In this document: piece by piece, positions 20,339-39,090 of the stretch
How positions within the stretch are numbered: position 1 is the first letter of the stretch
How the letters are laid out: each line of letters starts with the position of its first letter
Origin: a bacterium
Lineage (GTDB): Bacteria > Zhuqueibacterota > Zhuqueibacteria > Residuimicrobiales > Krinioviventaceae
Assembly (NCBI GenBank): GCA_029561455.1
Contig: JAKQIY010000076.1
Location: forward strand, 145,838 to 184,927
Direction: 5' to 3'
DNA length: 39,090 nucleotides
Made by a program: the position numbers and the translations under genes
The notes under the pieces: model-generated
Told to the model about the DNA's origin: nothing
Database searches by the model: none
The model's input: only the letters and a program-made list of their open reading frames with translations

Positions 20339-23300
20339 ATGAGAACAAACCATTTTCCAAATGCGGGATTACTTTTCATAGCGCTGATTTTCATCAACTT
20401 TTACAGCCTTGCAGCAACTGATATGGCCGATTTAATATTATATAATGGTAAAATCATTACCGTCGATGAGCAAGATCGTATTTACCAGGCAATTGCCGTT
20501 AAAGACGGCAGGATATTACAACTCGGCAGTGATGCTGAAATTACGCCACTAACCGATCCGCGTACAAAGACGATTAACCTGCAAGGCAAAACCGTAACAC
20601 CGGGGCTGATTGACTCCCATTACCACATGATGTATTATGGAGCGCAATTCTGGCCGGGATACCTGAATATACGCCATGAAATAGTCACCAGCAAAGCCGA
20701 ACTCTTACAGGTTGTTGGTGATTATGCCCAACAATTACAACCCGGACAATGGATTTCCGGCAACCAGGGTTTTACCCTGCAATTCGGAGAAACCCTGGAT
20801 CGCTGGGATCTGGATGCGGTTGCGCCCAATAATCCCTGTTACCTGCGGCATTGCAGCGGCCAGTACTCGGTTGTGAATTCGGCAGCGCTGGATAGCGCCG
20901 GAATCGACCGGGATACGCCTAATCCCCCCGGCAGCCTGATCATGAAAGACGAGTTCGGCGAGCCTAACGGACTTTTATCCCATTACCCTGCCGAGAACCT
21001 GGTTGGAAAATACGCCACCGGCTATGGCGACCGTACCGATCAACAAAAACTGGAGGATATTGAACGCGGCCAGCAGCTTTGCCTGCAGGCCGGTTATACA
21101 TCCATTCAGGACGTTATCATCGGCAGTATTAAAGATATTCAACTCTATAAACAGTATGCCGATAGCGGCTTACTCAAAGTGCGTTTGTATACCATGCTGT
21201 TATTAAATACGGAGCAGCAAGTGGATACCCTGGTACAAATGTATCAACCAATCGATTCCGGCCTGGTGCGTTTTGGCGGCTGGAAACTGGCAATGGATGG
21301 CGGCCTGGCAGCCAAAACCATGTTAATGTATGATAAATCATTATACGCTTCTGAAATATCCTATCCCTATCATACCCAGGAAGAGATGAACAGGATGGTC
21401 AAAAAATTACACGATACCGGTTTGCAGGTAGCTGTACATGTAGGCGGCGATGAAGGGATCGATATGACCCTCACCGCCTTTGAACTCGCCATGCAGCAAA
21501 ACCCGCGTCCCGATCCCCGGCACAGGATTGAACATGGTTTATTCCCTTCACCCAGCGCTTTGACACGCATGAAGAATGCCAATATCATCCTTTCCACCCA
21601 GCCACAATGGATTACCTGGTACGGTGATAGTTATGTGTTATTAACCGATAATACCACAATGGACAGGCTATTGCCATTGAAAACCATGCTGGATATGGAT
21701 ATTCATCTCGCTTTTGGCTGCGATGTTCCGGCCTCGATATACCAGGAACCTAAATATGCTTTTTGGGGAGCCACCATGCGACGCAGTCCAATGTCAGGCG
21801 CGAATTTTACTCCCGCAGAAAAAATTAACATGCACGAAGCTCTGCGGATACATACCATGGGTTCGGCGTATGCCGGCTTTGCCGAAACCACCACCGGTTC
21901 GCTGGAGCCGGGTAAATATGCCGATATGGTGATCTGGTCGCACGATCTGTATAATATAACGCCTCAGGAATCTTTTGACCTGGCGGCGGAAATGACGATT
22001 GTCGGCGGAGAAATTCTTTATGATGATGGTCAAAATCCTGTTATTACAAATACAAATAAATGGGTTTCGGTTGGACCGATGTTGGCTAGCCGGATGAATC
22101 ACACTGCAACATTATTAAATAATGGCACAGTACTGATAACGGGATGGGAAACAAATAACTGTGAACTGTACGATCCGGCAAGTCAAACATTTAGCGCCAC
22201 CGGCGCTACTCTTTATAATCACCGGGAAGCAGCAACCGCTACTTTGCTGAATAATGGTTTGGTCTTGCTGGCGGGAGGTTACAATGCCCCTCAAAAAGCG
22301 GAATTATATGACCCGGGTATCGGTACTTTTAAATTGACCGACAGTTTAAAAGCTGAACATACCTATCACACCGCCACCTTGCTTCCTGATGGCAGGGTAT
22401 TGATCGCCGGTGGCCAGTCACCCACCGGCCCGCAGACCCAGGCAGTAGTTGAAATTTATGATCCTGTAACCAACAAATTCTCTTTAACCGACAGCTTGAT
22501 TGAAGACCGTGCTTCACATACTGCCGCATTGTTACCAAATGGTTTGGTATTAATTGCCGGCGGATTAAAAACTACCACACCGGGACATGCGGTAGGTCTT
22601 AAATCATGTGAGCTCTATGATCCATCCAGTGGAACATTTATCCAGGCTCAACCAATGAATGTATACAGGAATAGTTTCAGTGCAACATGTCTTAATAATA
22701 ATAAAATTCTTGTCTGTGGCGGAGATTGGTACAATCCCACCGGTGAATTATACGATTATATTACAGATACCTGGACTCTGACTGGTGATATGGTTTCATT
22801 AAGACAGATGCAACATACGGCCACCTTGTTGAAAAATGGTCAAGTATTAATAACTGGTGGTTTCCTTGGGGGGGCAATGAACGCTTCTGAAATATTTAAT
22901 CCGGACAATAACGAGTTTACAACAACTGATAGTATGATTGTTCCAAGAAGAGGTCATAGTGCGACCTTGCTGGCTGATGGCTGCGTACTGGTTACCGGGG
23001 GATACAGTGGAACCGACGCCACCAACCTGGCTGAACTGTATGTTACAGAAAATATAACAAATGTAAAAAAGCCGGAAAAAGGAAAAATCCGGAATTCTAC
23101 ACCGGCAGATTTTACCTTGTCGCAAAATTATCCCAATCCATTCAATCCGGTAACATATTTAAATTATAATCTGACAAAACCGGCGCAGGTAACGATTGCG
23201 GTTTACAACATCCGCGGCGAATTGGTGCACACCCTGATTGACGCCAAACACAGTCCCGGCGAATACCGGGTTACCTGGGATGGTACATCTGCTGATGGCT

Positions 23301-23383
23301 CGCCGGTCGGCAGTGGTATGTACCTCGTGCGTATGCAAGCCGGCAAACAGGTAGAGTGCCGTAAAGTAGTTTATTTAAAGTAA
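20339..23383 (+). CDS. Fusion: amidohydrolase + seven-unit Kelch-like propeller + sorting tail
   Basis: This is a 1014-residue exported protein. Residues 1-26 are a signal peptide. Residues about 30-560 are an Amidohydro_3 (YtcJ-like) metal-dependent hydrolase: VTPGLIDSHYHMM with the metal His pair H94/H96, then VHVGGDEGID, RHRIEHG and LAFGCDVPAS, ending in the LEPGKYADMVIWS strand. Residues about 575-905 hold seven Kelch / galactose-oxidase-like units, each with HTATLL, then VLIAGG and an ELYDP-type strand, enough to close a seven-bladed propeller. The last 95 residues are a FlgD-like sorting tail with QNYPNPFNPVTYLNY. AAGGAG precedes the ATG. The substrate is unknown. The junction is in frame and smooth, so this looks like a real fusion. 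Confidence 0.87.
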   Translation: MRTNHFPNAGLLFIALIFINFYSLAATDMADLILYNGKIITVDEQDRIYQAIAVKDGRILQLGSDAEITPLTDPRTKTINLQGKTVTPGLIDSHYHMMYYGAQFWPGYLNIRHEIVTSKAELLQVVGDYAQQLQPGQWISGNQGFTLQFGETLDRWDLDAVAPNNPCYLRHCSGQYSVVNSAALDSAGIDRDTPNPPGSLIMKDEFGEPNGLLSHYPAENLVGKYATGYGDRTDQQKLEDIERGQQLCLQAGYTSIQDVIIGSIKDIQLYKQYADSGLLKVRLYTMLLLNTEQQVDTLVQMYQPIDSGLVRFGGWKLAMDGGLAAKTMLMYDKSLYASEISYPYHTQEEMNRMVKKLHDTGLQVAVHVGGDEGIDMTLTAFELAMQQNPRPDPRHRIEHGLFPSPSALTRMKNANIILSTQPQWITWYGDSYVLLTDNTTMDRLLPLKTMLDMDIHLAFGCDVPASIYQEPKYAFWGATMRRSPMSGANFTPAEKINMHEALRIHTMGSAYAGFAETTTGSLEPGKYADMVIWSHDLYNITPQESFDLAAEMTIVGGEILYDDGQNPVITNTNKWVSVGPMLASRMNHTATLLNNGTVLITGWETNNCELYDPASQTFSATGATLYNHREAATATLLNNGLVLLAGGYNAPQKAELYDPGIGTFKLTDSLKAEHTYHTATLLPDGRVLIAGGQSPTGPQTQAVVEIYDPVTNKFSLTDSLIEDRASHTAALLPNGLVLIAGGLKTTTPGHAVGLKSCELYDPSSGTFIQAQPMNVYRNSFSATCLNNNKILVCGGDWYNPTGELYDYITDTWTLTGDMVSLRQMQHTATLLKNGQVLITGGFLGGAMNASEIFNPDNNEFTTTDSMIVPRRGHSATLLADGCVLVTGGYSGTDATNLAELYVTENITNVKKPEKGKIRNSTPADFTLSQNYPNPFNPVTYLNYNLTKPAQVTIAVYNIRGELVHTLIDAKHSPGEYRVTWDGTSADGSPVGSGMYLVRMQAGKQVECRKVVYLK

Positions 23384-24182: not shown

Positions 24183-26330
24183 ATGAAATCTCAAAATTAT
24201 ATTTTGGCAACATTGATTATATTCCTCTACACAATAATATTTCTGATCATTGGCACACCCGTTACAGGAATTGCAGCACCAGGAAATGCCCTTGCTTTTG
24301 ATGGCGTGGATGATTATGTTACCACTGCCGATATTGATAACGCTTTGACAGGGTTCACAATTGAAGCCTGGGTTAAATGGAACCCATCAATCACTACAGA
24401 TGTTCAGTTTATCTGTGGTAAAGGCGTAGAACAACTCGAACTCCACACCGGCGGCGGCGCCGGCGCAAACGGCCTCCGCTTCATCCCCGTTACCGGGGTA
24501 TATCTTGATGCTGCTACTGTTTTACCAACCGGGCAATGGACTCATATTGCTGCTGTTTATAATCCTGCAACTTCGGTCGCCAAACTATACGTCAACGGAA
24601 TTGAAGAAACGCTTACGAACAATGGCCCTAATCCATTATATCCAGCAGTTGCCAATACGGCAATTCCCTTTTACATCGGGCGCCGAAGCGATAATATGTA
24701 CTATTTCAAAGGAATGATTGATGAGGTAAGGGTTTGGAATACTGTACGTTCTCAGGCACAGATTCAACAATACATGGATATCGAGGTCAGTCCTTCAGCC
24801 GGCGGATTAATTGAATACCATGATTTTAATGAAGGAACTCCCGGCGGTAATAACGCCGGCGTTACCAATCTGCCGGATTTAACCAGCAATAACTATGACG
24901 GTACATTATACAATTTTGCTCTAACCGGGTCAACCTCCAACTGGGTTGCCGGTTTTATCACCAAGGCTACCGTAACCACCGATGCCGCCGCTAATGTAAG
25001 CGCAGACGGGGCAACCCTGAACGGTACGGTGAATGCCAACAACGCCAGTACTACTGTAACCTTTGAGTATGGACTGACAACCGGTTATGGTTCAACTGTC
25101 ACTGCCGATGAAAGTCCGGTTACCGGCGGAACCGCTACGGCGGTAAGTTACACACTAACCGGCCTGCTTCCTGGCACGACCTATCATTATCGTGCAGTTG
25201 GCGTCAATTCAAAAGGGACAACCAATGGCGATGATGTTACTTTTGATACGGACGATGCGGCCATCACCTTTACCGACGGCAGCGCGTTTACTCCGGCAAT
25301 AACGTTAGGAAGCGCCAACCAGGTCATCGGCCGGTTTACATTGAGCGGCGATGTGGCCGGGGCAGCTTTGACTGCCGCTTCGATCAAACTCAATGGTACA
25401 CGCACAGGATTGTCGAACCTCAAACTATGGTCATCGGCAGATGCTACATTTGAATCCGGTTCCGACACCCAGCTTGGTAGTACTGTTGCCGCCGATCCCG
25501 GCGACGGCGGTTCGGCATCGTTCTCCGGTTTTACCAGTTCTATCGCTACCGGCGGCACGTATTATTTCCTCACCGGTGATGTTGCGGCCGGGGCTACCGG
25601 CATTGTGCAAGGCATCATTGTCGCTAACGCTAACCTTTCCTTTTTTAACGCAACGCTTTCCGGCACAATCACCAACGCCCCGCTTTCAAACGGCGACGCT
25701 TCTCTGCCGGTGGAACTGACTTCCTTCACAGCCACTGTGCAGGGCAATGCCATAGTTTTATCCTGGCAGACCGCAACTGAAACCGACAACCTCGGATTTA
25801 TTTTGGAGCGTTCCGTAGGGGCGGATGATAATCCGCCCGGAGAGGCAGGGACGGGGTGGCAAACCATCGCCTCATACCAGACCCGCAATGAACTCAAAGG
25901 ACAGGGCAACACATCCAGCCGGACGGAATATGCTTTCACGGATCAAACCGTCGAATCCGGGAAAAGCTATTCTTACCGTCTTTCTGATGTCAGCACGAAA
26001 GGAAAGATCACGGTCTATGCTTCTTTATCCATTACAATGGACAACCTTCCTGAGACGACGGAGCTTGGGAAAGCGTATCCGAATCCGTTCAATCCCCAGA
26101 CATTCATAGGCTACGAACTAGCTGAAGACACGGACGTGACCATCAGGGTCTTCGACATGTTAGGACGACAGGTGAAAACTCTCTTCAATGGACACCAGTT
26201 TGCCGGAAGCTACAATGTTTACTGGAACGCGACGGATGAGAGGGGCAACAAAGTGCCCAGCGGAAGCTACATCATTCAGATGAAGACGAAAACGACCCGG
26301 CAAACGCAGAAGGTGATGTTGATGAAGTGA
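24183..26330 (+). CDS. Array paralogue 1: LamG + Fn3 + shared modules + sorting tail
   Basis: This is a 715-residue exported protein. Residues 1-32 are a signal peptide. Residues about 35-205 are a LamG / concanavalin-like domain (ALAFDGVDDYV, FTIEAWVKW, WTHIAAVY, GMIDEVRVWN), usually a carbohydrate- or matrix-binding fold. Residues about 262-357 are fibronectin-III-like (ANVSADGATLNGTV, GLLPGTTYHYRAVG). Residues about 361-505 are shared module A, starting [11 protein letters not shown]. Residues about 507-625 are shared module B (LPVELTSFTATV). The last 85 residues are the FlgD-like tail with [11 protein letters not shown]. Module B holds an extra segment of about ten residues encoded by a palindromic insertion at 25815-25853. 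An adhesin or secreted binding role is inferred. Confidence 0.87.
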   Translation: MKSQNYILATLIIFLYTIIFLIIGTPVTGIAAPGNALAFDGVDDYVTTADIDNALTGFTIEAWVKWNPSITTDVQFICGKGVEQLELHTGGGAGANGLRFIPVTGVYLDAATVLPTGQWTHIAAVYNPATSVAKLYVNGIEETLTNNGPNPLYPAVANTAIPFYIGRRSDNMYYFKGMIDEVRVWNTVRSQAQIQQYMDIEVSPSAGGLIEYHDFNEGTPGGNNAGVTNLPDLTSNNYDGTLYNFALTGSTSNWVAGFITKATVTTDAAANVSADGATLNGTVNANNASTTVTFEYGLTTGYGSTVTADESPVTGGTATAVSYTLTGLLPGTTYHYRAVGVNSKGTTNGDDVTFDTDDAAITFTDGSAFTPAITLGSANQVIGRFTLSGDVAGAALTAASIKLNGTRTGLSNLKLWSSADATFESGSDTQLGSTVAADPGDGGSASFSGFTSSIATGGTYYFLTGDVAAGATGIVQGIIVANANLSFFNATLSGTITNAPLSNGDASLPVELTSFTATVQGNAIVLSWQTATETDNLGFILERSVGADDNPPGEAGTGWQTIASYQTRNELKGQGNTSSRTEYAFTDQTVESGKSYSYRLSDVSTKGKITVYASLSITMDNLPETTELGKAYPNPFNPQTFIGYELAEDTDVTIRVFDMLGRQVKTLFNGHQFAGSYNVYWNATDERGNKVPSGSYIIQMKTKTTRQTQKVMLMK
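25815..25853. repeat. Palindromic repeat inserted in frame in a coding region
   Basis: GGGCGGAT (25819-25826) and ATCCGCCC (25831-25838) flank a GATA loop. The segment encodes VGADDNPPGEAG where all sibling genes have a shorter AGNGAWQ or EGNGAWQ stretch. The flanking protein sequence resumes with GWQTIASYQ, so the insertion keeps the frame. Confidence 0.6.
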
Positions 26331-26384
26331 GTGGCAATCCCTTGAGAAGAAGAATACTTTCTTCATTAAACATGAAGAGTCAAT

Positions 26385-26416
26385 AGCGACGCTCATTGAA
26401 GGAGCGTCGCTGTTTT
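26385..26416 (+). terminator. Probable terminator after array paralogue 1
   Basis: AGCGACGCTC (26385-26394) and GAGCGTCGCT (26402-26411) form a perfect 10-bp stem with a 7-base loop, followed by GTTTT. The T-run is short, so termination may be partial. Confidence 0.7.
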
Positions 26417-26447
26417 GGAAAAACTACACATTCTATAGGAATCATGC

Positions 26448-27764
26448 ATGAAAGCACGGGTGCTACTATCGGGTTTTATTCTTGCGCTGGGTTCAGGGCT
26501 TTGCGCCCAATCAATATCCTTTTGGGGAACAGGTCCATTTTCATGTGTTCCTGGGGGTACTTGGCCAAATGCAGGAACATACTCTTTGCCAGGCGCAAAC
26601 GGCTATTCCGTCTATGCTTTCAATGGATGTTGGGTTGTAAATCCAGGAGATTATATATTAAGCGGAGATGGCGACGGCTGCAATACATGGAGTACCTTCA
26701 CCCTTGCAGAAAGAAGCGCCGCCATTACCTTCGTTGATGGCAGCGGCTTCACCTCAAGCGTCGTAAAAGGCGGTTTGAACCAGGCGCTTGGTCGTTTTCA
26801 ACTAACCGGCAGCGCTTCCGGTGCGACATTAACCACCGCCTCCATCAAACTAGATGGTACACGCACCGGGTTAAGCAACTTGAAACTGTGGTCTTCAACC
26901 AACAATACCTTTGAATCCGGTTCCGATACCAAGTTGGGTTCCACAGTCGGTGGCGATCCGGGCGACGGCGGTTCAGTATCCTTCTCCAGTTTCTCCAGTT
27001 CCATCGGAACCGGCGGGACGTATTACTTTTTAACCGGCGATGTTGCGGCCGGGGCCACCGGGATAGTACAAGGCGTCATTGTCGCCAACGGCAACCTTAC
27101 GATTTCCGATGGAACCCTGTCCGGCTCGATTGATAACGCCCCGCTCTCCAACGGCGATGCTTCACTGCCTGTGGAACTTGCATCTTTTACCGCCTCTGTG
27201 CAGGGCAATGCTGTTGTGCTAAACTGGCAGACCGCCAGTGAAACCGACAACCTCGGCTTTATCCTGGAACGCGCGGCTGGCAACGGCGCCTGGCAGCCAA
27301 TAGCGTCATACAAAACCAACCCAGCTTTAAAAGGTCAGGGCAATGCTTCAACAACTAACACCTATTCCTTTACGGACAACACGGTTGTCGCCGGTAGCGA
27401 GTACCGCTACCGCCTGGGCGATGTGAATGTTGCAGGGACAGTTACCATGCACTCCCCCATTTACGTAACTACAACGGCCCTGCCACAGAGCACAGTCATG
27501 CTCAATGCGTATCCCAATCCTTTCAACCCGGAAACGACCATTAAATACACCCTGCACAAGGATGCGCAGGTTACTATAACGGTTTACGACCTGCTGGGCC
27601 GCCAGGTCAAGACATTAGTCGATGAAAATCAGGTCGCCGGCGCGTACCATGTTATCTGGAACGGAACCGATGCTGCCGGTTCGCAGGCCGCCAGCGGCGC
27701 GTACCTGGTGCGCATGGAAACGGCAGAGGTTACGCAAACGCAAAAAGTGCTGCTGTTGAAATAA
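26448..27764 (+). CDS. Array paralogue 2: short Cys-containing domain + shared modules + sorting tail
   Basis: This is a 438-residue exported protein. Residues 1-20 form a signal peptide ending SGLCA. Residues about 21-90 are a small unrecognised domain rich in Gly, Trp and Tyr with three Cys (FSCVPGG, NGCWVV, DGCNTW). Residues about 92-238 are shared module A (ITFVDGSGFT), about 240-350 module B (LPVELASFTASV), and the last 87 the FlgD-like tail ([14 protein letters not shown]). It is the shortest member with module A. Its tail DNA is almost identical to that of paralogue 4 although another member lies between them. The front domain is specific to this gene and its role is unknown. Confidence 0.83.
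   Translation: MKARVLLSGFILALGSGLCAQSISFWGTGPFSCVPGGTWPNAGTYSLPGANGYSVYAFNGCWVVNPGDYILSGDGDGCNTWSTFTLAERSAAITFVDGSGFTSSVVKGGLNQALGRFQLTGSASGATLTTASIKLDGTRTGLSNLKLWSSTNNTFESGSDTKLGSTVGGDPGDGGSVSFSSFSSSIGTGGTYYFLTGDVAAGATGIVQGVIVANGNLTISDGTLSGSIDNAPLSNGDASLPVELASFTASVQGNAVVLNWQTASETDNLGFILERAAGNGAWQPIASYKTNPALKGQGNASTTNTYSFTDNTVVAGSEYRYRLGDVNVAGTVTMHSPIYVTTTALPQSTVMLNAYPNPFNPETTIKYTLHKDAQVTITVYDLLGRQVKTLVDENQVAGAYHVIWNGTDAAGSQAASGAYLVRMETAEVTQTQKVLLLK
27222..27589 (+). repeat. Near-identical block, copy 1 (partner 31489-31856)
   Basis: Over 368 bases this block differs from 31489-31856 at only five positions by direct comparison. Identity falls off sharply at both edges. It covers module B and the start of the sorting tail. 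Confidence 0.9.
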
Positions 27765-27817
27765 AAAATTTAAATTCAGAATATATTATATAGATTTTAA
27801 AATGAAAAGGAATTAAC

Positions 27818-29500
27818 ATGAATACTGATATGAAAAATTCCCTACTGGTTATTTTCATCTGTATAACATTTATGACACAATCCCTGTGGGCGTTCATTGG
27901 CAGCGGTTCAGGTACCGAAGGTAGCCCTTATATTGTTACTTCGGCGGCGGAACTCAATGACGTGCGCAACGATTTAACCGCTTATTACCGGCAAACTGCG
28001 AATATAAGTCTCAGTGGTTATGATAGCTGGACGCCAATTGGAACCGGATCAGCCACTTCTACGGCTTTCACCGGAACCTATGACGGCAATGGGCATAAAG
28101 TGACCGGGCTAACCATTACAAGTTATTCTTCTGCCGGGGCAGGACTGTTTGGCTATAATAGAGGTACAATTAAAAATCTGGGCGTTTCGGGCTCGGTAAG
28201 CGCTACAGCTACCAGTGCAGGAATTCTAGCCGGACTGAACTATTATGGAACGATGCAGAATTGTTATACGGAAGGCTCCGTTACTTCCTCAAGTAATTAT
28301 GTTGGAGGTTTTGTCGGGTCTTGTTCTTATAGCACAACAGGTATTACACAATGTTATTCCACGGCAACAGTTACCGCAACTGGTGCTGGTTCCATGAATG
28401 TAGGCGGATTCGTTGGCCATACCAATAATTCTGGCGCTACCATAAGCGAATGTTATTGCACGGGAAATGTTACTAACAACAACACAACAAGTGCTAATGC
28501 AAATACCGGTGGGTTTGTCGGGGCATCGGCATTAACCATTAGTAATTGTTATGCGACGGGAAATGTTTCATGCAGCGGCAGTCGTATTGGTGGATTTTGT
28601 GGATTTGCCTCCTATAACACGCCAATTTCATATTGCTATTCTACCGGAACCGTTACAGGTGGTAGCACCATAGGCGGCTTTGTAGGTTATTACAATACTG
28701 GAACATTTACCAGTTGTTTTTTTAATCACGATAATGCAAATATGTCATCGTATGGAGGGTATGCGACCTCTGCACCAACCGGTATTACGGCAGCAACAAC
28801 AGCCGATATGAAAACCGCATCGACCTACAGCAGTTGGAGTACCAGTTACTGGAATCTGACGAACGGCAGTTATCCCACGCTCAAATGCTTCGATGAATCC
28901 CTGCCCGTGGAACTCTCTTCCTTTACCGCCACTGTGCAGGGCAATACTATTGTTCTAAACTGGCAAACTGAAAGCGAAACCGATAACCTCGGCTTTACCC
29001 TGGAACGCGCGGAGGGTGACGGCGCCTGGCAACAGATCGCCTCGTACCAAACCAGTGATGCGCTAAAAGGCCAGGGCAACACCTCCACGACCACCAGTTA
29101 TACCTGGACCGACGCCGGTGTTGCACCGAACAGTGGGTACCGCTACCGCCTGGGCGATGTGAATGTTGCTGGGACAGTAACCATGCACTCCCCCATTGCC
29201 GTTACAATGACCGCTTTGCCGCAGAGTACGGAATTGCTGAATGCTTATCCGAATCCCTTCAACCCGGAAACGACTATCAACTATCAATTGCACAAGGACT
29301 CGCAGGTTACCATAACGGTTTATGACCTGCTGGGCCGCAAAGTTAAAACATTAATCGATGAACAGCAAGCCGCCGGATCGTACCGGACGCTATGGAACGG
29401 TACGGATAACAGTGGCGCCAAAGCCGCCAGCGGCGCGTACCTGGTACGGATGGAAACCCAGGAGGTAACACAAATACAAAAAGTACTTTTACTAAAATAG
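27818..29500 (+). CDS. Array paralogue 3: GLUG repeats + module B + sorting tail
   Basis: This is a 560-residue exported protein. Residues 1-25 form a signal peptide ending SLWA. Residues about 30-110 have the usual lead-in of GLUG proteins (SPYIVTSAAELNDVR, FTGTYDGNGHKVTGL). Seven units of the GLUG type then run from about 113 to 320, with patterns such as GGFVGxxxxxTISNCYATGNV; each has a conserved Cys-Tyr. These units form a right-handed beta-helix and are known from surface proteins and some adhesin-like or peptidase-linked proteins. Module A is absent. Module B (LPVELSSFTATV) starts about 365 and the FlgD-like tail ([14 protein letters not shown]) fills the last 85 residues. AAAGGAA precedes the ATG. 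Confidence 0.87.
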   Translation: MNTDMKNSLLVIFICITFMTQSLWAFIGSGSGTEGSPYIVTSAAELNDVRNDLTAYYRQTANISLSGYDSWTPIGTGSATSTAFTGTYDGNGHKVTGLTITSYSSAGAGLFGYNRGTIKNLGVSGSVSATATSAGILAGLNYYGTMQNCYTEGSVTSSSNYVGGFVGSCSYSTTGITQCYSTATVTATGAGSMNVGGFVGHTNNSGATISECYCTGNVTNNNTTSANANTGGFVGASALTISNCYATGNVSCSGSRIGGFCGFASYNTPISYCYSTGTVTGGSTIGGFVGYYNTGTFTSCFFNHDNANMSSYGGYATSAPTGITAATTADMKTASTYSSWSTSYWNLTNGSYPTLKCFDESLPVELSSFTATVQGNTIVLNWQTESETDNLGFTLERAEGDGAWQQIASYQTSDALKGQGNTSTTTSYTWTDAGVAPNSGYRYRLGDVNVAGTVTMHSPIAVTMTALPQSTELLNAYPNPFNPETTINYQLHKDSQVTITVYDLLGRKVKTLIDEQQAAGSYRTLWNGTDNSGAKAASGAYLVRMETQEVTQIQKVLLLK

Positions 29501-29622
29501 GTTAATTGCTTTACTGTTATGTATATATGATTCATTCTATAACGGATTACATTCCATATATTTTCTAACCAATAAAATATAATCACTTGGTGAGACAATA
29601 AAGACAAAGGAAAGGGATTAAT

Positions 29623-32031
29623 ATGTTAACAATTAAGTTGATAAGAAATTTAATTTATTCCCCCTGGTTGACATTAATTTTGTTATTAATCCTGGGAGAA
29701 GCTTCGCTGTTTGCCAATAACGGCCTTGTGATTGGCTGGCATGAAGGAACTGGTTCATACTGGTCCCATTCCGAACTTGGTATCCCACCCAATTATGATA
29801 AACCGCTCTCCGTGACAACCACTCACGGCACAATATACGGCACATTAGGGGCGGGTGAACCCACCGCCGGCGCGAAATGGGCTTACGGTCCGGAATGGGA
29901 TAACGGCAGCGGCACAAAAGGATGGGTTTTCCCCATGACCACGTCCGGTTTTGAAAATCTGACCCTGACATTTTATCAGAAGAGCAGGGATCAATCATCT
30001 CAGTACGGTCCCCGTGATTTCAAGCTCCAGTATAGTACTAACGGCAGTTCCTGGACTGACGTAGCCGGAACCAGCTTTGTTCTGACAAATAGTTGGCAGC
30101 AATTCAACGCCACATTACCTTCCGCTTGTGATGAACAAGCCACTCTTTATTTGAAATGGGTGATGAGCAGCAATGTTTCGATCAACGGCGGAGCGATTGT
30201 AGCGGAAGCGATGTCGGAATTTGCGGATTTCTATATGAACGGCGACGAGCTTCCCCTGCCCATCACCGACGTCAGCCTGAGCAATACTTCAATCAGCAGC
30301 AATAAGCCGTCCGGAACCACAGTTGGCGATCTCAGTCATACGGATGCCAACTATTATGATACTCATACATATTCCCTGGTTGCAGGAGAAGGCGATACCG
30401 ACAACAGCAGTTTTGCCATCGCTGGTACAACCTTAAAGACCGCCGCCGTGCTATCCGCCGGGGATTATTCGATTCGGGTGCAGGTCGATGACGGGACATA
30501 TACATTGGCTGAAATCTATACTATCACCGTGACCGCCTATCCGTCTGTTATTGTGGAAAATTCTGAAGATAATGCCTATTGGTGGATCACCCGCGTTCAA
30601 TTTGGCGATATTGACAAGTCCAGCGGAATGTCGGGCACTAACAATGCTGATGGGTATAGCGATTATACTAGTGAATCTGCCGGCGTTACCAGGGGGCAAT
30701 CCATTGATCTGACGGTTACCGTTAATATACCGGATGACTATGGGGAATACCTTAACGCTTATTTTGACTGGAATCGCGATTATGACCTGGAAGATGCCGG
30801 GGAAAAAGTGGAAATAGCAACTATAAGTGGAGAATCGGGAACTATTTCAAAAACTGTAAATGTTACTGTTCCCGCGGACGCCGCATTGGGCAGTACCTTA
30901 ATGAGGGTTGCAATCGACTATTATGGCAATATGGCATTAGGGGTTGCCGATATTGGCGAAGTGGAAGACTATACAATAGATATTGTTTATGTTACCTTTA
31001 CCAACGGCAGCGCTTTCACATCTGCCGTTACTCCGGGCAACGGTAACCAGGCGCTTGGTCGTTTTCAACTAACCGGCAGCGCTACCGGCGCCACATTAAC
31101 CGCCGCCTCCATAAAACTAAATGGTACACGCACCGGTTTAAGCAACTTGAAACTGTGGTCTTCAACCAACAATACCTTTGAATCCGGTTCCGACACCCAA
31201 CTTGGTTCTACCGTAGCCGTCGACCCGGGCGACGGCAGTTCCGCTTCGTTCTCCGGCTTTAGCAGCGCCATTGGCACAAGTGGCACTTACTATTTCCTCA
31301 CCGGCGATATTGCCGCCGGAGCCACCGGCGCGGTACAGGGCGTAATAGTAGCTAATGGTAATTTGACTGTTTCCGGCGGAACCCTGTCCGGCACTATCAC
31401 CAATGCTCCGCTTTCTAATGGCGATGCTTCACTGCCAGTGGAACTTGCATCATTTACCGCCGTGGTGCAGGGCAATGCTATAATACTGAACTGGCAGACC
31501 GCCACTGAAACCGACAACCTCGGCTTTATACTGGAACGCGCGGCTGGCAACGGCGCCTGGCAGCCAATAGCGTCATACAAAACCAACCCAGCTTTAAAAG
31601 GTCAGGGCAATGCTTCAACAACTACCACCTATTCCTTTACGGACAACACGGTTGTCGCCGGCAGCGAGTACCGCTACCGCCTGGGCGATGTGAATGTTGC
31701 AGGGACAGTTACCATGCACTCCCCCATTTACGTAACTACAACGGCCCTGCCGCAGAGCACAGTCATGCTCAATGCGTATCCCAATCCTTTCAACCCGGAA
31801 ACGACCATTAAATACACCCTGCACAAGGATGCGCAGGTTACTATAACGGTTTACGATCTGCTTGGCCGCAAAGTGAAAACTTTGATCGATGAGCAGCAGT
31901 CCGCCGGTTCGTACCGGGCAATATGGAATGGTACGGATGCGAGTGGGAATAAAGCTGCCAGCGGCGCGTACCTGGTACAGATGCAAACAGGTGAAATTTC
32001 ACAAACACAAAAAGTGTTACTGCTAAAATAA
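29623..32031 (+). CDS. Array paralogue 4: beta-sandwich + cadherin-like + GEVED + shared modules + sorting tail
   Basis: At 802 residues this is the longest member. Residues 1-30 form a signal peptide. Residues about 32-205 are a Trp- and Tyr-rich beta-sandwich resembling carbohydrate-binding domains. Residues about 210-302 are cadherin-like (ITDVSLSNTSISSNKPSGT). Residues about 305-452 are a GEVED domain: Asp-Trp-Asn-Arg-Asp in a possible Ca-binding loop, then TLMRVAIDY and the signature GEVEDYTI. Module A follows at about 455-600, module B at about 604-712 and the FlgD-like tail to 802. It looks like a multi-domain adhesin, but binding is inferred. Part of module B and the tail is 98-99 percent identical in DNA to paralogue 2. 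Confidence 0.85.
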   Translation: MLTIKLIRNLIYSPWLTLILLLILGEASLFANNGLVIGWHEGTGSYWSHSELGIPPNYDKPLSVTTTHGTIYGTLGAGEPTAGAKWAYGPEWDNGSGTKGWVFPMTTSGFENLTLTFYQKSRDQSSQYGPRDFKLQYSTNGSSWTDVAGTSFVLTNSWQQFNATLPSACDEQATLYLKWVMSSNVSINGGAIVAEAMSEFADFYMNGDELPLPITDVSLSNTSISSNKPSGTTVGDLSHTDANYYDTHTYSLVAGEGDTDNSSFAIAGTTLKTAAVLSAGDYSIRVQVDDGTYTLAEIYTITVTAYPSVIVENSEDNAYWWITRVQFGDIDKSSGMSGTNNADGYSDYTSESAGVTRGQSIDLTVTVNIPDDYGEYLNAYFDWNRDYDLEDAGEKVEIATISGESGTISKTVNVTVPADAALGSTLMRVAIDYYGNMALGVADIGEVEDYTIDIVYVTFTNGSAFTSAVTPGNGNQALGRFQLTGSATGATLTAASIKLNGTRTGLSNLKLWSSTNNTFESGSDTQLGSTVAVDPGDGSSASFSGFSSAIGTSGTYYFLTGDIAAGATGAVQGVIVANGNLTVSGGTLSGTITNAPLSNGDASLPVELASFTAVVQGNAIILNWQTATETDNLGFILERAAGNGAWQPIASYKTNPALKGQGNASTTTTYSFTDNTVVAGSEYRYRLGDVNVAGTVTMHSPIYVTTTALPQSTVMLNAYPNPFNPETTIKYTLHKDAQVTITVYDLLGRKVKTLIDEQQSAGSYRAIWNGTDASGNKAASGAYLVQMQTGEISQTQKVLLLK
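31489..31856 (+). repeat. Near-identical block, copy 2 (partner 27222-27589)
   Basis: This is the partner of the block at 27222-27589, offset by 4267 bases, with five mismatches in 368 bases. Four of the five lie in its first 172 bases. After 31856 the sequence turns toward the version found in paralogue 5. Confidence 0.9.
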
Positions 32032-32044
32032 AAAAACCAATTGA

Positions 32045-32081
32045 ACATTCTCCCGAATGCCAAAAATTCACGGGAGAATGT
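32045..32081 (+). terminator. Intergenic hairpin between paralogues 4 and 5
   Basis: ACATTCTCCCG (32045-32055) and CGGGAGAATGT (32071-32081) form a perfect 11-bp stem. The T-run after it is missing, so it may be a processing or stability hairpin. A close copy recurs in the next intergenic gap. Confidence 0.6.
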
Positions 32082-32127
32082 AATAATAAAATCCACAATA
32101 TCTTTTATAGACAAGGAGAACCATTTT

Positions 32128-33492
32128 ATGAAATTAATACGAACCCGTCTTTTAATATTTCTCGTTATATTTTGCAGTATGGGTTTGATTCAGGCGGCAA
32201 CCACGCTTAGCGCGGGAGATGTGATAATATTGGCAATAAATGGTGATACCGATGCTTCAAATAATTACGGCAGAGGTTTTTCCTTTATGCCATTGGTCAA
32301 CCTGGAGGCGGGAACGATAATCAACTTTACCGATTATGGCTGGAGTGATCTTACCACTGCATTCATAACTAATACTTCAGTTGCCGATGCATTTATCCAT
32401 TATACCGTTCCGGCAGGCGGCATTACCGCCGGAACTGTTATTCGATGTGATTCTTATTCAAATACAAATTTTACTTTTGATTTTTCCTATTCCGGGTCAG
32501 GCAATAATTATTTAAACACAGCAGGTTTAACCCAGGGTGATGAACTGTTAATTTTTCAGGGAAGCAGATCTACCCCTACTTTTATTTTTGCCGCATCAAT
32601 CGTGAGTACTGCCATAGTAGCATCCGGTTGGGCTACCAATGTGGGCACTAACGGCACCGACGGATCAGGCGCAGGTTCTGCATTACCCCCTGGTTTGAGC
32701 GATGATGCAACAGCCTTGTCATTCAATCGAGACGCTAGCGCTAACGATAATTGTGCCTATTCAGGAACAACAACAGCAGAAACCAGGGCAAATTGGCAAA
32801 ATCGGATTAAAAACTATTCAAACTGGACTTTTAATGATGCAGCTCCAATCCCGACTCCGCTGACCGGTCCTTATACTGTTACAGACGCTTCTTTGCCCGT
32901 AACATTGTCTTCTTTCATTGCCGGCATTCAGGGAAACACGATAGTATTGAATTGGCAAACCGCCAGCGAAACCGACAACCTCGGCTTTACACTGGAACGC
33001 GCGGCAGGCAACAGCGGATGGCAGCCAATCGCATCTTACAGAACCCATCCGGCATTAAAAGGCCAGGGCAACACTTCTACAACCACCACCTATTCCTTTA
33101 CGGATAACACAGTCACAACAGGTACGGAATACCGCTACCGCCTGGGCGATGTCAATGTCGCCGGTGTGGTAACTATGCACTCCCCCATTACCGTAATCAC
33201 AACGGCCCTGCCGCAAACTACGGAAATGTTCAATGCTTATCCTAATCCATTCAATCCTGAAACGACTATCAACTACAAACTGCACAAGGATTCGCAAGTT
33301 ACGATAATTGTGTATGACCTGCTGGGCCGGAAGGTAAAAACATTGATCGATGAACAACAGTCCGCAGGTTCGTACCAGGCGCTATGGAACGGCACGGATG
33401 AAGGCGGCGCCAAAGCCGCCAGCGGCGCATACCTGGTGCGCATGCAAACAGCAGAAGTAACGCAAACGCAAAAAGTTTTACTGGTGAAATAA
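32128..33492 (+). CDS. Array paralogue 5: AGD-type domain + module B + sorting tail
   Basis: This is a 454-residue exported protein. I start it at 32128 because AAGGAGAA lies just before that ATG and a good signal peptide (MKLIRTRLLIFLVIFC...IQA) follows; an in-frame TTG at 32041 would run coding sequence through the hairpin. Residues about 24-250 form a domain that begins TTLSAGDVIILAING, continues with FSFMPLVNLEAGTIINFTDYGW, and has a later LTQGDELLIFQGSRSTPTFIFA. The same domain opens paralogues 6 and 7. I know this pattern from other secreted proteins of the group but cannot give it a function. Module A is absent; module B starts about 262 and the FlgD-like tail about 368. Confidence 0.85.
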   Translation: MKLIRTRLLIFLVIFCSMGLIQAATTLSAGDVIILAINGDTDASNNYGRGFSFMPLVNLEAGTIINFTDYGWSDLTTAFITNTSVADAFIHYTVPAGGITAGTVIRCDSYSNTNFTFDFSYSGSGNNYLNTAGLTQGDELLIFQGSRSTPTFIFAASIVSTAIVASGWATNVGTNGTDGSGAGSALPPGLSDDATALSFNRDASANDNCAYSGTTTAETRANWQNRIKNYSNWTFNDAAPIPTPLTGPYTVTDASLPVTLSSFIAGIQGNTIVLNWQTASETDNLGFTLERAAGNSGWQPIASYRTHPALKGQGNTSTTTTYSFTDNTVTTGTEYRYRLGDVNVAGVVTMHSPITVITTALPQTTEMFNAYPNPFNPETTINYKLHKDSQVTIIVYDLLGRKVKTLIDEQQSAGSYQALWNGTDEGGAKAASGAYLVRMQTAEVTQTQKVLLVK

Positions 33493-33507
33493 GGAATCGA
33501 ATTAAAC

Positions 33508-33541
33508 TTTCTCCCGGAAACTAAAACTTTTCGGGAGAATG
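33508..33541 (+). terminator. Intergenic hairpin between paralogues 5 and 6
   Basis: TTCTCCCG and CGGGAGAA arms pair around an inner GAAA/TTTT extension. The right arm and the following GTAATAATAAA match the hairpin at 32045-32081 almost base for base, so the spacer was duplicated with the genes. Confidence 0.55.
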
Positions 33542-33591
33542 TAATAATAAAGTCAATTGTTTATTAACACATTCTTTAAAGGAGTTTTCTT

Positions 33592-35745
33592 ATGAAATTG
33601 ATACAATCATTGTTATTATTAACTCTCGTAATTTTATGCAGTACAGGTTTGATTCAAGCGGCAACTACGCTCAGCGCTGGTGATATTGCCTTTGTAATGT
33701 TTAATAATGGCGCCGACCCCATGACGTGGGCATGGGTTCCTTTAGTTGATATATCATCAGGCACAACAATCTATTTTACAGATAACGGATGGGATGGTGT
33801 TGATTTAAACGCTTTTGGTTATTCTGAAGCAGATTTAGCTACTAATAATGATGATTACTTGACTTTTGTAACTACCAGTTCTATCTCAAAAGGAACTGTA
33901 ATCTCAGTTTCCGGCACCACATTTTCACCTAGTTACGGTACAGTAACCGCTTATAATACTGCTCCGCCAAGGTCATCTTCGGGAGACCAAATGTTGGCAT
34001 ATCAGGGGTCCTTTGCATCGCCAACATTTATTGCCGGCGTTCATGCCGAATATAATAGTAGTAATTATAACGCCACAACACATTGGAGTGCTACAAATTA
34101 TAGCACAACCCGTGCTTTAGCAACTTCTACATTACCTGAAGGTTTAACGGACGGGACAAATTGTGTTTCCTTATATCCCGCTATAACTGAACAAGACTAT
34201 GCATATTATAGTGGCTCAACATTGTCAGGTACCAAAGCAGTATTATTGACTGCTATTAACAATTATGCGAATTGGACATCCAACAGCACGACCACTTATA
34301 CATGGGAACGAGGGAATTTAACAGTTACCGCATCATATCCGGAGATAAACGTCCAGGGTAACGGCAATACTATTACCGATGGAGATACTGAACCGACAAC
34401 TACCGACCATACCGATTTTAGTTCGGCAGCGGTAACCGGCGGGTCGGTCGTACGCACTTTTACAATTCAAAATACCGGGGCCGGAACTTTAACTTTGGGC
34501 GCCAATGCCGTATCCCTTACCGGCGACGCCGATTTCACAGTTACGGCGCAACCTGCCACATCAGTGGCGGCAAGTGGCAATACTACTTTTCAGGTTACAT
34601 TTGATCCTGCGGCTGCGGGTTTACGTTCAGCTTCAGTCTCCATTGCTAATGATGATAGCAATGAGAATCCCTACAACTTTGATATTCAGGGCACAGGCAC
34701 AGCCGCCATCACCTTTACCGATGGCAGCGCGTTTACCCCAACAGTTTCCGGCGGTTCCGACCGGGCCATTGGTCGTTTTAGTTTAACCGGCGATGGTACA
34801 GGAGCTAATTTAACCGCCGCATCCATCAAACTCAATGGTACCCGCACGGGATTGAGTAATATCAAATTATGGTCATCCGCTAATGCCACCTTTGAATCCG
34901 GCTCCGATACACAATTGGGTTCCACAGTGGTTGCCGATCCCGGCGACGGCAGTTCCGCTTCGTTCTCTTCATTCTCCAGCGCCATCGGTACGAGCGGCAC
35001 ATATTATTTCCTCACCGGCGATATAGCGGCCGGGGCAACAGGTCATGTGCAGGGAGTAATTGTAGGCAATGCTAATTTGACGGTTTCCGGCGGTACTTTG
35101 ACCGGCTCAATTACCAATGCGCTGCTCTCCATCAGTGATGTCTCCCTGCCGGTCGCGCTCGCTTCTTTCACTGCCAATGTGCAGGGCAATGCCATCGTAT
35201 TGAGCTGGGCGACAGCCAGCGAAACCGATAACCTCGGCTTTACCCTGGAACGCGCCGAAGGTAACAGCGCCTGGCAGCCAATAGCGTCGTACCGGACCTG
35301 TGATGCGCTCAAAGGCCAGGGCAATAAATCTACTACAACCAATTATTCCTGGACCGACGCCGGTGTTGCACCGAACAGCGAGTATCGTTACCGTCTGGCC
35401 AATGTGAATACAGCCGGGACTGTTACTATGCACTCCCCCATTGCTGTAACCATGACAGCCCTGCCGCAGAGCACGGAAATGCTGAATGCCTATCCCAATC
35501 CCTTCAACCCGGAAACATCTATCCAATACAATCTACAGCAAGATTCATACGTGACCATCACAGTCTACGATATACTTGGACGGCAGGTAAAAACGCTCTA
35601 CAGCGGCCAGCAGCCGGCCGGAAGTTATCATACCTATTGGAACGGCACCGATGCCGCCGGCGCTAAATCTGCCAGCGGCGCTTATATCCTTCGGATGGAA
35701 ACTGAAAATTTTAAACAAAATAAAAAAATCATGTTATTAAAATAA
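33592..35745 (+). CDS. Array paralogue 6: AGD-type domain + choice-of-anchor-D-like + shared modules + sorting tail
   Basis: This is a 717-residue exported protein. Residues 1-23 are a signal peptide close to that of paralogue 5. Residues about 24-245 are the same AGD-type domain ([34 protein letters not shown]). Residues about 248-370 are an Ig-like domain of the choice-of-anchor-D / ASH kind ([41 protein letters not shown]). Module A runs about 372-518, module B about 520-630 and the FlgD-like tail to 717. The tail is more divergent than its siblings ([19 protein letters not shown]). It combines parts seen singly elsewhere in the array, which supports module exchange. GGAG precedes the ATG. 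Confidence 0.86.
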
Positions 35746-35884
35746 AAAAATTACTTTTATTTATCAAACAGCACCGGCAATTTCCCGGAATTGTTAGATT
35801 ATTAAAATATAAAATGCTGAAACCGGTAAAAAAAAATACAAAATCAAACATATTTAAAGAATATATTATATTGAAAGGAATTCA

Positions 35885-37225
35885 ATGAAATTGCTACGGA
35901 TTATTTTAACAATATCAATTATGATATTCTGGGGTTCAAGCACATTCTCGGCAACTACACTTGGAGCAGGCGATATTGTTATCCTTGAATTTAACGGTAA
36001 TGGAACGGATGGATTTTCTTTTATGCCGTTGGTTAATTTAAGTGCCGGAACTAAAATTAATTTCACCGACTATGGATGGAATGCAGGGTCAGGTACATTT
36101 AATACTACCGATGAGTCTAGCTCAGGTAATGGCAATATGATAACATATACAGCTTCCGGAGCTGTATCTGCAGGTACAATTATAAGACAGGATGCATCAA
36201 ATGTAGGGGGTGCAGAATTTACACCGCACGCGGACTGGGCTTATAATTATAGTAATCAAAATTATATACACGCATTAATGTCTACCGTTGCAGGACATGA
36301 TGGAATTATTGCATTTCAAGGAACACCCACTTCACCGACTTTTATTTGGGCTTATCAAACTGGTCAATGGAATGGCACAGATTATTACTATTGCTCTGAT
36401 CTTCCAACTGGCTTAACTAATGGGGTAAATGCAATTTACTTTGCGGATTTAGAATCGGGATCAGATTTAACTGTGGATGATGGGTATTATAAGGGTCCTT
36501 ATACAGAAGCGACTGCGGCAGATTGGAGAAGTCGAGTTGCAAATAGTAGTAATTGGACCTCTATTGCATCAGGGACAGCGCCTGCGCTTTTATATCCTAA
36601 CACTTATACTGTTACAGACGCTTCATTGCCTGTTAAATTGTCATCCTTTAATGCTAATTTACTGGGTAATAATATTTTCTTATCCTGGCAAACCGAAAGT
36701 GAAACCGACAACCTCGGCTTTGTCCTGGAACGGGCGGAAGGTAACGGCGCCTGGCAGCCAATCGCTTCTTACAAAACCCATCCGGCGCTAAAAGGTAAAG
36801 GAAATGCTTCAACAACTACCACCTATTCCTTTAGGGACAACACGGTTGCCACCGGTACGGAATACCGCTACCGCCTGGGCGATGTGAATACCGCGGGAGT
36901 TGTAACTATGCACTCCCCCATTGCCGTAACTACAACGGTCCTGCCGCAGAGCACGGCAATGCTGAATGCTTATCCCAATCCTTTCAATCCGGAAACGACT
37001 ATCAACTATCAATTGCACATGGATTCTCAGGTTTCAATTACAGTCTATGACCTGCTGGGACGCACAGTAAAAACATTGATCGATGAGCAGCAGGTTGCCG
37101 GTTCGTACCATGCAATCTGGAATGGCACGGATGAGGCCGGTGCAAAAGCTGCCAGCGGCGCGTACCTGGTGCGGATGCAGACGCAGGAGATTACGCAAAC
37201 GCAGAAAGTATTACTGCTGAAATAA
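35885..37225 (+). CDS. Array paralogue 7: AGD-type domain + module B + sorting tail
   Basis: This is a 446-residue exported protein with the same layout as paralogue 5. Residues 1-22 form a signal peptide ending STFSA. Residues about 23-240 are the AGD-type domain (TTLGAGDIVILEFNGNG, FSFMPLVNLSAGTKINFTDYGW, then HDGIIAFQGTPTSPTFIWA). Module A is absent. Module B (LPVKLSSFNANLLGN) starts about 246 and the FlgD-like tail ([14 protein letters not shown]) covers the last 85. The front domain is more AT-rich than the tail, which resembles paralogue 5, so the two halves seem to have different histories. AAAGGAA precedes the ATG. Confidence 0.85.
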   Translation: MKLLRIILTISIMIFWGSSTFSATTLGAGDIVILEFNGNGTDGFSFMPLVNLSAGTKINFTDYGWNAGSGTFNTTDESSSGNGNMITYTASGAVSAGTIIRQDASNVGGAEFTPHADWAYNYSNQNYIHALMSTVAGHDGIIAFQGTPTSPTFIWAYQTGQWNGTDYYYCSDLPTGLTNGVNAIYFADLESGSDLTVDDGYYKGPYTEATAADWRSRVANSSNWTSIASGTAPALLYPNTYTVTDASLPVKLSSFNANLLGNNIFLSWQTESETDNLGFVLERAEGNGAWQPIASYKTHPALKGKGNASTTTTYSFRDNTVATGTEYRYRLGDVNTAGVVTMHSPIAVTTTVLPQSTAMLNAYPNPFNPETTINYQLHMDSQVSITVYDLLGRTVKTLIDEQQVAGSYHAIWNGTDEAGAKAASGAYLVRMQTQEITQTQKVLLLK

Positions 37226-37280
37226 TCTCCGCAAGCTGGTCAACTTTCACAGAGCATTGACATCTTGACGATAAACAGAT

Positions 37281-37312
37281 GGCTCCGGGATTCAGTTCTG
37301 GAGCCTTTTTTT
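37281..37312 (+). terminator. Rho-independent terminator
   Basis: GGCTCCGG (37281-37288) and CTGGAGCC (37298-37305) form an 8-bp stem with one G-U pair, followed by seven T. It closes the unit ending with paralogue 7. Confidence 0.88.
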
Positions 37313-37672
37313 ATTTGGGGGATTACCATGACCGGACCTTGTAATCTGATATAGCTACCTTTTAAAATAATACTTTGTTAATTTCTTATAAACTATTATC
37401 TTGTAAGGTGAATTAGAATAAACGCTTATCCATACCTCTGGATAAATACATGAAATCAGTTAACCGCTTTCCAACTTGTCAACCACTAATCGGAGCTATA
37501 ACTTTAGCCCAAACAACAATCACTCTTAAATATTCCGGTTATGAAATGATTTCACTACAGGAGATCGACCAACAAAGTATTTTCAGGATATACATAACGA
37601 GTTGACCAGAATAAAAAATCAAGATAGGTAGTAAAAATAAAGACTCTTGACGCACATTGAAAGGAACAACTT
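37313..37672. other. AT-rich intergenic region before paralogue 8
   Basis: No gene is seen in these 360 bases. A small TTATCC/GGATAA hairpin lies near 37426-37445. A promoter for the next gene is expected because a strong terminator precedes this region. Confidence 0.4.
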
Positions 37673-39090
37673 ATGAAATCTCTAAAAATCCTGGCCTTTT
37701 GGCTCATTCTTATTACGCCGGTTTTTGCGCAATATCCAACTCTGCCTTATCATCCAAACACTGTCGAACCTGGTAAATATCCGGCGCCATCATCTCCATT
37801 TCAATATAATGATTATATTACCAATGTAACATTTGCGGGTATTAATAATACCACCGGCGCAGTACTTTGGCGAAATAATTATTCCGGCTCTACCCATGGT
37901 AGCGTAGTCAGGGGGCAGGAGTACACTATTTCCGTAACGGTGAATAGTTCGGGCGCCGATTTTTCATACCAACATATTGATGCTTATATCGATTGGGATC
38001 GAAATGGTGATTGCGGGGGAAAAGCTCCCGATCATGGCGGCTCTGGCGCAATTGCTGCAGAGTGTTATGCATTAGGTAGTGGCGCTTCCCATCCGGCAAC
38101 AATGACTTTCGATATTACAGTACCCAATGATGCTGCCATTGGAACTACCTGGCTGAGAGTAACAGTTGAAGGAGATGCAGCAATTGATGCAGAATCTTAT
38201 CTCGGATATTTTGGTTATGGTGAAATAGAAGAATATGGACTTGAAGTTTCTGCCGGAACCCCTGATGTTACTTTTGCCAACGGCAGCGCCTTTACTCCGG
38301 CAATCACCCTGGGCAGCGCCAACCAGGCTATTGGTCGATTTCAATTGACCGGCAGTATTGCGGGCGCTTCACTGACCGCAGCCTCGATAAAACTCAATGG
38401 TACGCGAACCGGTCTGAGTAATCTGAAATTATGGGGCTCAACCGATGCAACCTTCAATTCCGGTTCCGATACCCAGCTTGGTTCAACGGTGGCTGCCGAT
38501 CCTGGCGACGGCAGTTCGGCGTCGTTCTCCGGCTTTAGCAGCGCTATTGGCACAAGTGGAACGTATTATTTCCTCACCGGCGATGTTTCTGCCGAAGCAA
38601 CCGGTATAGTACAGGGCGTTATCGTAGCTAATGGAAATCTAACCGTATCAGGCGGTACTTTGTCCGGCACAATCACCAACGCCCCGCTCTCCAACGGCGA
38701 TGTGTCCCTGCCGGTCGAACTGGCTTCTTTTACTGCTAAAGTAGAAGGTACAACCATTGTGTTGAACTGGGCGACCGCCAGCGAAACCGACAACCTCGGT
38801 TTTATCCTGGAACGCGCGGCAGGCAACGGCGCATGGCAGCCAATCGCTTCATACAAAACCGATGCGGCGTTAAAAGGCCAGGGCAATGCTTCAACAACCA
38901 CCTCCTATTCCTTTATAGACAACACAATCACTACAGGAACGGAATACCACTATCGCCTGGGTGATGTGAACACTGCCGGGATTGTGACCATGCACTCCCC
39001 CATTTCCGTAACCACAACTGCCCTGCCGCAGAGCACGGCAATGCTGAATGCCTATCCCAATCCGTTCAACCCGGAAACCACGGTGAAATA
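37673..39090 (+). CDS. Array paralogue 8: GEVED-type domain + shared modules, cut by window end
   Basis: The frame starts with ATG at 37673 behind AAGGAA and stays open to the last base, giving 472 visible residues. Residues 1-19 form a signal peptide (KSLKILAFWLILITPVFA). Residues about 43-195 resemble a GEVED domain, with DAYIDWDRNGDC as a possible Ca-binding loop and GEIEEYGLEV in place of the usual signature. Module A follows at about 198-340 (VTFANGSAFTP) and module B from about 345 (LPVELASFTAKV). The sorting tail has begun with [13 protein letters not shown] when the window ends; about 75 more residues are expected. Its N-terminal domain is related to one of the internal domains of paralogue 4, so the same part is used in two positions. 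Confidence 0.87.
   Translation, partial: MKSLKILAFWLILITPVFAQYPTLPYHPNTVEPGKYPAPSSPFQYNDYITNVTFAGINNTTGAVLWRNNYSGSTHGSVVRGQEYTISVTVNSSGADFSYQHIDAYIDWDRNGDCGGKAPDHGGSGAIAAECYALGSGASHPATMTFDITVPNDAAIGTTWLRVTVEGDAAIDAESYLGYFGYGEIEEYGLEVSAGTPDVTFANGSAFTPAITLGSANQAIGRFQLTGSIAGASLTAASIKLNGTRTGLSNLKLWGSTDATFNSGSDTQLGSTVAADPGDGSSASFSGFSSAIGTSGTYYFLTGDVSAEATGIVQGVIVANGNLTVSGGTLSGTITNAPLSNGDVSLPVELASFTAKVEGTTIVLNWATASETDNLGFILERAAGNGAWQPIASYKTDAALKGQGNASTTTSYSFIDNTITTGTEYHYRLGDVNTAGIVTMHSPISVTTTALPQSTAMLNAYPNPFNPETTVK

Follow-up and report, generated by a model that had tools for sequence, protein, structure and literature searches.

The window analysed here, a 39,090-nucleotide stretch of contig JAKQIY010000076.1 (C80) from a bacterium of the Krinioviventaceae with kinship to candidate division KSB1, ends in a row of genes that join varied N-terminal regions (fronts) to a shared C-terminal segment (tail). 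We consider it likely that these genes form a tandem array of type IX secretion system (T9SS) cargo that evolves through duplication, gene conversion among tails and shuffling of fronts. From position 24183 to its end, the window holds eight consecutive plus-strand open reading frames (ORFs; genes 1–8, Table 1), all carrying a 100-residue module B that precedes the sorting domain. A second, 147-residue module A precedes module B in exactly five of them, genes 1, 2, 4, 6 and 8. An initial annotation, made from the sequence alone, had described eight same-strand paralogues with a common tail and module B; ORFs and profile matches agree with this description, and its module A set was reproduced exactly by sequence search.

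The annotated count of eight holds for the window and falls short as a total. The window ends with contig C80, truncating gene 8 inside its sorting domain, and the last 81 bases of C80 match the first 81 of contig C43 exactly. Gene 8 ends 217 nt into C43 beyond this overlap, and seven more tailed genes follow, reaching position 16763 (16.8 kb), two of them with module A. In a whole-genome search, module A occurred solely at these two contig ends, and a genome-wide tail search placed the high-identity tails there likewise. Because both contig ends share module A and high-identity tails, the sequences support a single locus of about 15 tailed genes spanning 31.6 kb. A break within a repeat is the outcome expected from short-read assembly.

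Tail identity and putative export

By profile comparison, the array tail is a T9SS type A sorting domain. The C-termini of genes 1–7 exceed the curated cut-offs of FlgD_ig, Por_Secre_tail and TIGR04183 (38–45 bits for the last, against a cut-off of 23), and genes 9, 10, 11, 13, 14 and 15 score above the Pfam cut-off of PF18962. In Bacteroidota, this sorting domain is an Ig-like secretion signal, both necessary and sufficient for export (PMC10202324, PMC4804311). The genome also encodes SprA (TIGR04189; 897 bits, cut-off 200). Each array protein appears to bear a signal peptide, judged by eye in genes 1–8 from hydrophobic N-termini behind short basic starts. For gene 5, the ATG at 32128, where the apparent signal peptide begins, is a more likely start than the TTG at 32041, which opens the longest ORF 87 nt upstream. 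We regard the array proteins as T9SS cargo with putative export through this system. Our search of the open-access literature found no paper joining KSB1 and type IX secretion.

Like tails behind unlike fronts

FlgD-like tails number at least 150 across the genome (276 candidates), and possession of one is therefore ordinary. Judged from amino-acid identity, the likeness of tails within the array exceeds chance. Core array tails are mutually 65–90% identical, with the tail of gene 1 more divergent at 53–59% to the core; outside the array, no tail of the genome comes closer to it than about 59%, those aligned lying at about 40–59%, and the best tail of the single congener compared reaches 49%. 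The fronts are unrelated or 31–39% alike, with genes 12 and 13 the single exception (72%). Two other clusters in the same genome, C30 (five genes) and C36 (three genes), combine tails at 80–88% with homologous fronts at 40–62%, and these sequences mark them as plain tandem duplicates. Since C30 and C36 are alike in both tails and fronts, like tails behind unlike fronts are not simply a product of clustering. A third set (C68:123232-129223; L010:13232-19223) has a common 292-bp sorting-domain block at 91–93% identity and partly unrelated fronts. The same C68 region holds clustered REP-like (repetitive extragenic palindromic) repeats of 30–73 bp (L010:935-1746 and 7061-7161), beside which a minus-strand ORF (L010:1009-1641) resembles a REP-associated tyrosine transposase.

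Ordinary tandem duplication and divergence could in principle yield such an array from one ancestor, with fronts changed beyond recognition and tails held alike by selection from the export machinery. C30 and C36 are exactly of this sort, and homologous fronts do occur in the array, among genes 5, 6 and 7 and between genes 12 and 13. We nevertheless think this explanation unlikely: LamG, GLUG, GEVED and AGD are different families that divergence cannot derive from one another, and the many FlgD-like tails outside the array imply that export needs no such likeness. The silent-site conversion tracts and the chimera described below likewise argue against tandem divergence alone.

Recombination among the tails

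Tail comparisons indicate that neighbouring array genes underwent segmental gene conversion. Between the tails of genes 2 and 4, an opening stretch of 57 nt with 10 mismatches gives way to 368 nt with 5, the closing 172 nt hold 51, and the contrast between the tract and what follows it (5 of 368 versus 51 of 172) gives a Fisher p of about 1e-22. At third positions, the pair is 97% identical within the tract and 47% outside it, compared with about 59% and 60% for the median core pair. Gene 13 appears from its alignments to be a chimera of a gene-12-type module B and a core-like sorting domain. Its module B groups with that of gene 12 (support 100/100), with core placement rejected by the approximately unbiased (AU) test (p 3e-12), and its identity to the core shifts from 49% in module B to 75% in the sorting domain, significantly so at third positions (p 0.0002).

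The borders of similarity are sharp. In most pairs, the onset of DNA similarity lies within a few codons of a module (A or B) or of the sorting domain; its end lies at most 12 nt beyond the stop codon in nearly all pairs. A block comprising tail, intergenic DNA and the next signal peptide matches between genes 4/5 and 5/6; we read this block as the footprint of a unit duplication, as duplication predicts. The tract shared by genes 2 and 4, the chimeric gene 13 and the sharp module borders lend support to the recombination proposed in the initial annotation as far as the tails are concerned.

Several points weigh against our reading or narrow it. In a Sawyer-type runs test on genes 2 and 4, the longest run covered 39 variable third positions (permutation mean about 16.6, 99th percentile 28), a length that single permutations also hit, and the test assumes no rate variation along the gene. 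The sorting-domain alignment of 261 columns is too short to reject genes 12 and 13 as sisters (AU p 0.21). Over the core genes, identity at 4-fold sites is not significantly different between tail and module A (bootstrap interval -0.02 to 0.17), and duplication age alone may explain much of the tail likeness. We therefore limit the claim to segmental conversion and do not extend it to wholesale homogenisation of the tails. The join of C80 and C43 rests on the 81-bp overlap and on the array-only modules common to both. Near sprA, a PorU-like C25 protease reaches 350 of the 420 bits set by its NCBIfam cut-off, and a weak PorV/Q-like match reaches 71 of 325 bits. T9SS-dependent export is a prediction from sequence. 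One genome per species was compared, and front swapping is a proposal drawn from a single strain.

Occurrence in other genomes

Module A is rare beyond this genome. Among 59 relatives, we found a strong match in one and weak matches in two (one of them the congener, at 33%), with no module A above 33% in the congener; across 84,980 species, scanned with two seed patterns that set the limits of the search, the module turned up in three named genomes. AGD fronts are absent from the 59 relatives, congener included, and array-type tails were not found in the congener. The congener MutL is 75–76% identical, and synteny with our genome covers the citrate-transporter, IPP-transferase and mutL genes; beyond mutL, on the array side, the congener carries different tailed proteins. 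The flanking amidohydrolase and beta-propeller-like proteins led to no orthologous congener locus. The initial annotation held that the same genes in the same order in distant relatives, with no homogenisation of tails, would speak against its proposal; the relatives instead lack AGD fronts, the congener lacks array tails as well, and module A is scarce.

One of the three named genomes with module A, a Neomarinimicrobiota metagenome-assembled genome (MAG), holds four head-to-tail genes, whose fronts are one GLUG, two CSLREA-type (named by eye) and one small domain followed by module A. Their tails are 82–91% identical among themselves and about 43% identical to those of the window array; module A is 62–73% identical between the two arrays, and the GLUG front is 39% identical to that of gene 3. 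Tails cluster by array for the Neomarinimicrobiota genes, C30 and C36, with the divergent genes 1, 12, 13 and 15 of the window array falling outside its core group. From these comparisons, the Neomarinimicrobiota array is best described as an independent instance of like form with its own homogenised tails. The end of the signal peptide is common to its genes as well. Behind its last gene, at L055:11117-11207, the 5′ leader and signal-peptide start common to these genes occur once more as an orphan, which looks as if it were the remnant of a deleted further unit.

An imported cluster, in which the genes were already fused to their tails in another lineage and merely gathered here, would fit the patchy occurrence of module A in three other named genomes, the AGD fronts missing from the 59 relatives and the differing congener region beyond mutL. 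We judge it quite improbable. Tail groupings follow the array and the genome and not the front, as the disparity between module A and tail in the Neomarinimicrobiota genes illustrates. Silent sites of module A are near saturation between the window genome and the Neomarinimicrobiota genome; its sharing or transfer is therefore old, and a recent transfer between the two is rejected.

Fronts, module A and neighbouring genes

The fronts of the window genes (Table 1) were matched by Pfam and NCBIfam models for LamG (gene 1), GLUG (gene 3), GEVED with a weak F5/8C match (gene 4), choice-of-anchor D (gene 6) and GEVED (gene 8). The AGD domain of genes 5, 6 and 7 is one family at 31–39% amino-acid identity with no Pfam match, and its predicted structure (predicted local distance difference test score, pLDDT, 38) was unusable. 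These matches agree broadly with the initial annotation; the cadherin-like stretch it placed in gene 4 matched no Pfam cadherin model at E<=0.01, and its GLUG helix is a repeat of the beta-helix type. Each front comprises one to three domains, probably of binding type.

Table 1. Coordinates of array genes, modules and recombination features in the window.
Feature	Position	Strand	Content
Gene 1	24183..26330	+	LamG and weak Fn3 front (fn3 sub-threshold), module A, module B and T9SS sorting tail
Gene 2	26448..27764	+	Small Cys-containing front (~90 aa), module A, module B and tail
Gene 3	27818..29500	+	GLUG repeat front, module B and tail
Gene 4	29623..32031	+	Beta-sandwich (weak F5/8 type C), cadherin-like stretch and GEVED front, module A, module B and tail
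Gene 5	32128..33492	+	AGD front, module B and tail
Gene 6	33592..35745	+	AGD and choice-of-anchor D front, module A, module B and tail
Gene 7	35885..37225	+	AGD front, module B and tail
Gene 8	37673..39090	+	GEVED front, module A, module B and tail start; cut by window/contig end
Module A of gene 1	25263..25703	+	
Module A of gene 2	26724..27164	+	
Module A of gene 4	30991..31431	+	
Module A of gene 6	34708..35145	+	
Module A of gene 8	38267..38707	+	
Gene-conversion tract, gene 2	27222..27589	+	Compared with gene 4 tract
Partner tract, gene 4	31489..31856 (about)	+	
Exact overlap with C43 (L002) start	39010..39090	+	81 bp

Module A matched no known family at usable E-values in sequence searches; matches to DUF2572 (E 0.01-0.05) were taken as chance, and a PDB profile match to the collagen-binding adhesin 8jl8 (1e-5) was low-complexity-like. 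We take module A to be a beta-sandwich. The best structural alignments of its predicted model (pLDDT 71) are seven entries of Bacteroidetes sialidases at Z 8.4–8.7, followed by two Porphyromonas gingivalis sialidase entries at Z 6.8 and then by unrelated structures at 6.7; Foldseek alone gave nothing significant. In its modelled structure, module A may resemble CBM93 (BNR_assoc_N, PF14873), which is N-terminal in Bacteroidetes sialidases, binds glycans and also occurs with laminin_G_3 (PMC9472817). Unlike CBM93, module A has no attached sialidase domain, and PF14873 gave no sequence match to it at E<=10. The model offers a lead toward carbohydrate binding, short of an assignment.

Directly upstream of the array, at 20339-23383, a single fusion protein combines an Amidohydrolase_3 domain with Kelch repeats and a T9SS tail. 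Within the continuation on C43 (L002:4808-11060), acetyltransferase-like, phage-tail-collar, untailed 295-aa and dockerin-type proteins are interspersed. Promoter and terminator scans gave no excess over shuffles.

Proposed mechanism

The array is real and somewhat unusual in its sequence organisation, and it may work as a diversity generator today. The head-to-tail arrangement on one strand places each front cassette between direct repeats of about 600 bp, namely module B and tail of the previous gene and those of its own. We propose that homologous recombination of the RecA type between such repeats can remove whole fronts or add copies of them in frame, that conversion can copy tail segments among genes and leave tails alike in patches, and that exchange inside module A could combine fronts anew. 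If incoming DNA carried matching tails, its fronts might, we infer, be captured. The deletion or duplication and conversion steps are visible as sequence history; front exchange in living populations, display at the surface, binding of ligands, the capture of foreign fronts and selection for diversity are conjectural parts of the proposal. For the diversification proposed in the initial annotation, the tail recombination, the AGD and tail types absent from the congener and the independent array speak in favour, and the homogenisation has proved only patchy.

In a programmed diversity system (shufflon, silent-cassette or retroelement type), a dedicated recombinase would serve a single expressed gene. 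Such loci resemble the array in outline, with one constant end and a row of variable partners, but we regard this explanation as very improbable. Genes 1–8 each start with a codon and an apparent signal peptide of their own, all lie on one strand, and inverted copies are lacking. Among the genes scanned in the window and in the first 20 kb of C43, there is no recombinase, integrase or reverse transcriptase, and similarity borders fall at domain borders and not at one repeated site.

Carried further, array evolution by duplication, conversion and shuffling suggests a broader idea that we put forward tentatively and hold to be possible without thinking it probable. The segment of module B and sorting domain may double as export signal and direct-repeat homology anchor, and such arrays may be landing pads on which surface-binding fronts from other lineages are gained, lost and exchanged by ordinary homologous recombination, a course that T9SS cargo would have taken repeatedly in Neomarinimicrobiota and KSB1-like bacteria. 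If so, the T9SS sorting tail would also be a recombination anchor for new surface proteins, and the process would operate outside Bacteroidota, where T9SS is little studied. Array copy number and fronts would then vary between and within populations, with tails constant. Short-read MAGs can break in such arrays, as here, so that array size is underestimated.

Comparison with known systems

The array proteins resemble T9SS type A cargo (TIGR04183/PF18962) in their C-terminal Ig-like sorting domain and apparent signal peptide, and in the SprA gene and candidate PorU-like gene of the genome. They differ from known T9SS cargo in lying outside Bacteroidota, to which a review restricts C-terminal domain (CTD) proteins (PMC10202324), in tails that also score as FlgD_ig, and in being clustered and partly homogenised. 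Exchange of binding domains between architectures is found in multi-domain adhesins diversified through domain shuffling, such as the Csh family (PMC10952558); these are fibrillar adhesins first known from Streptococcus and have no tandem array with a constant export end.

By analogy, the nearest precedent is hagA/kgp of P. gingivalis. There, the adhesin-gingipain loci hagA, kgp and rgpA are likewise neighbouring T9SS cargo genes with homologous segments; in-frame deletion derivatives of hagA-kgp have arisen through probable homologous recombination (PMC9328147), and domains are rearranged between strains (PMC5266723). Given these shared repeats and their in-frame recombination (PMC9328147), the statement in the initial annotation that no system of exactly this form had been described was too strong. 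The P. gingivalis loci comprise a few genes that share adhesin repeats, whereas the array described here comprises about 15 genes that join mostly unrelated fronts to one shared tail.

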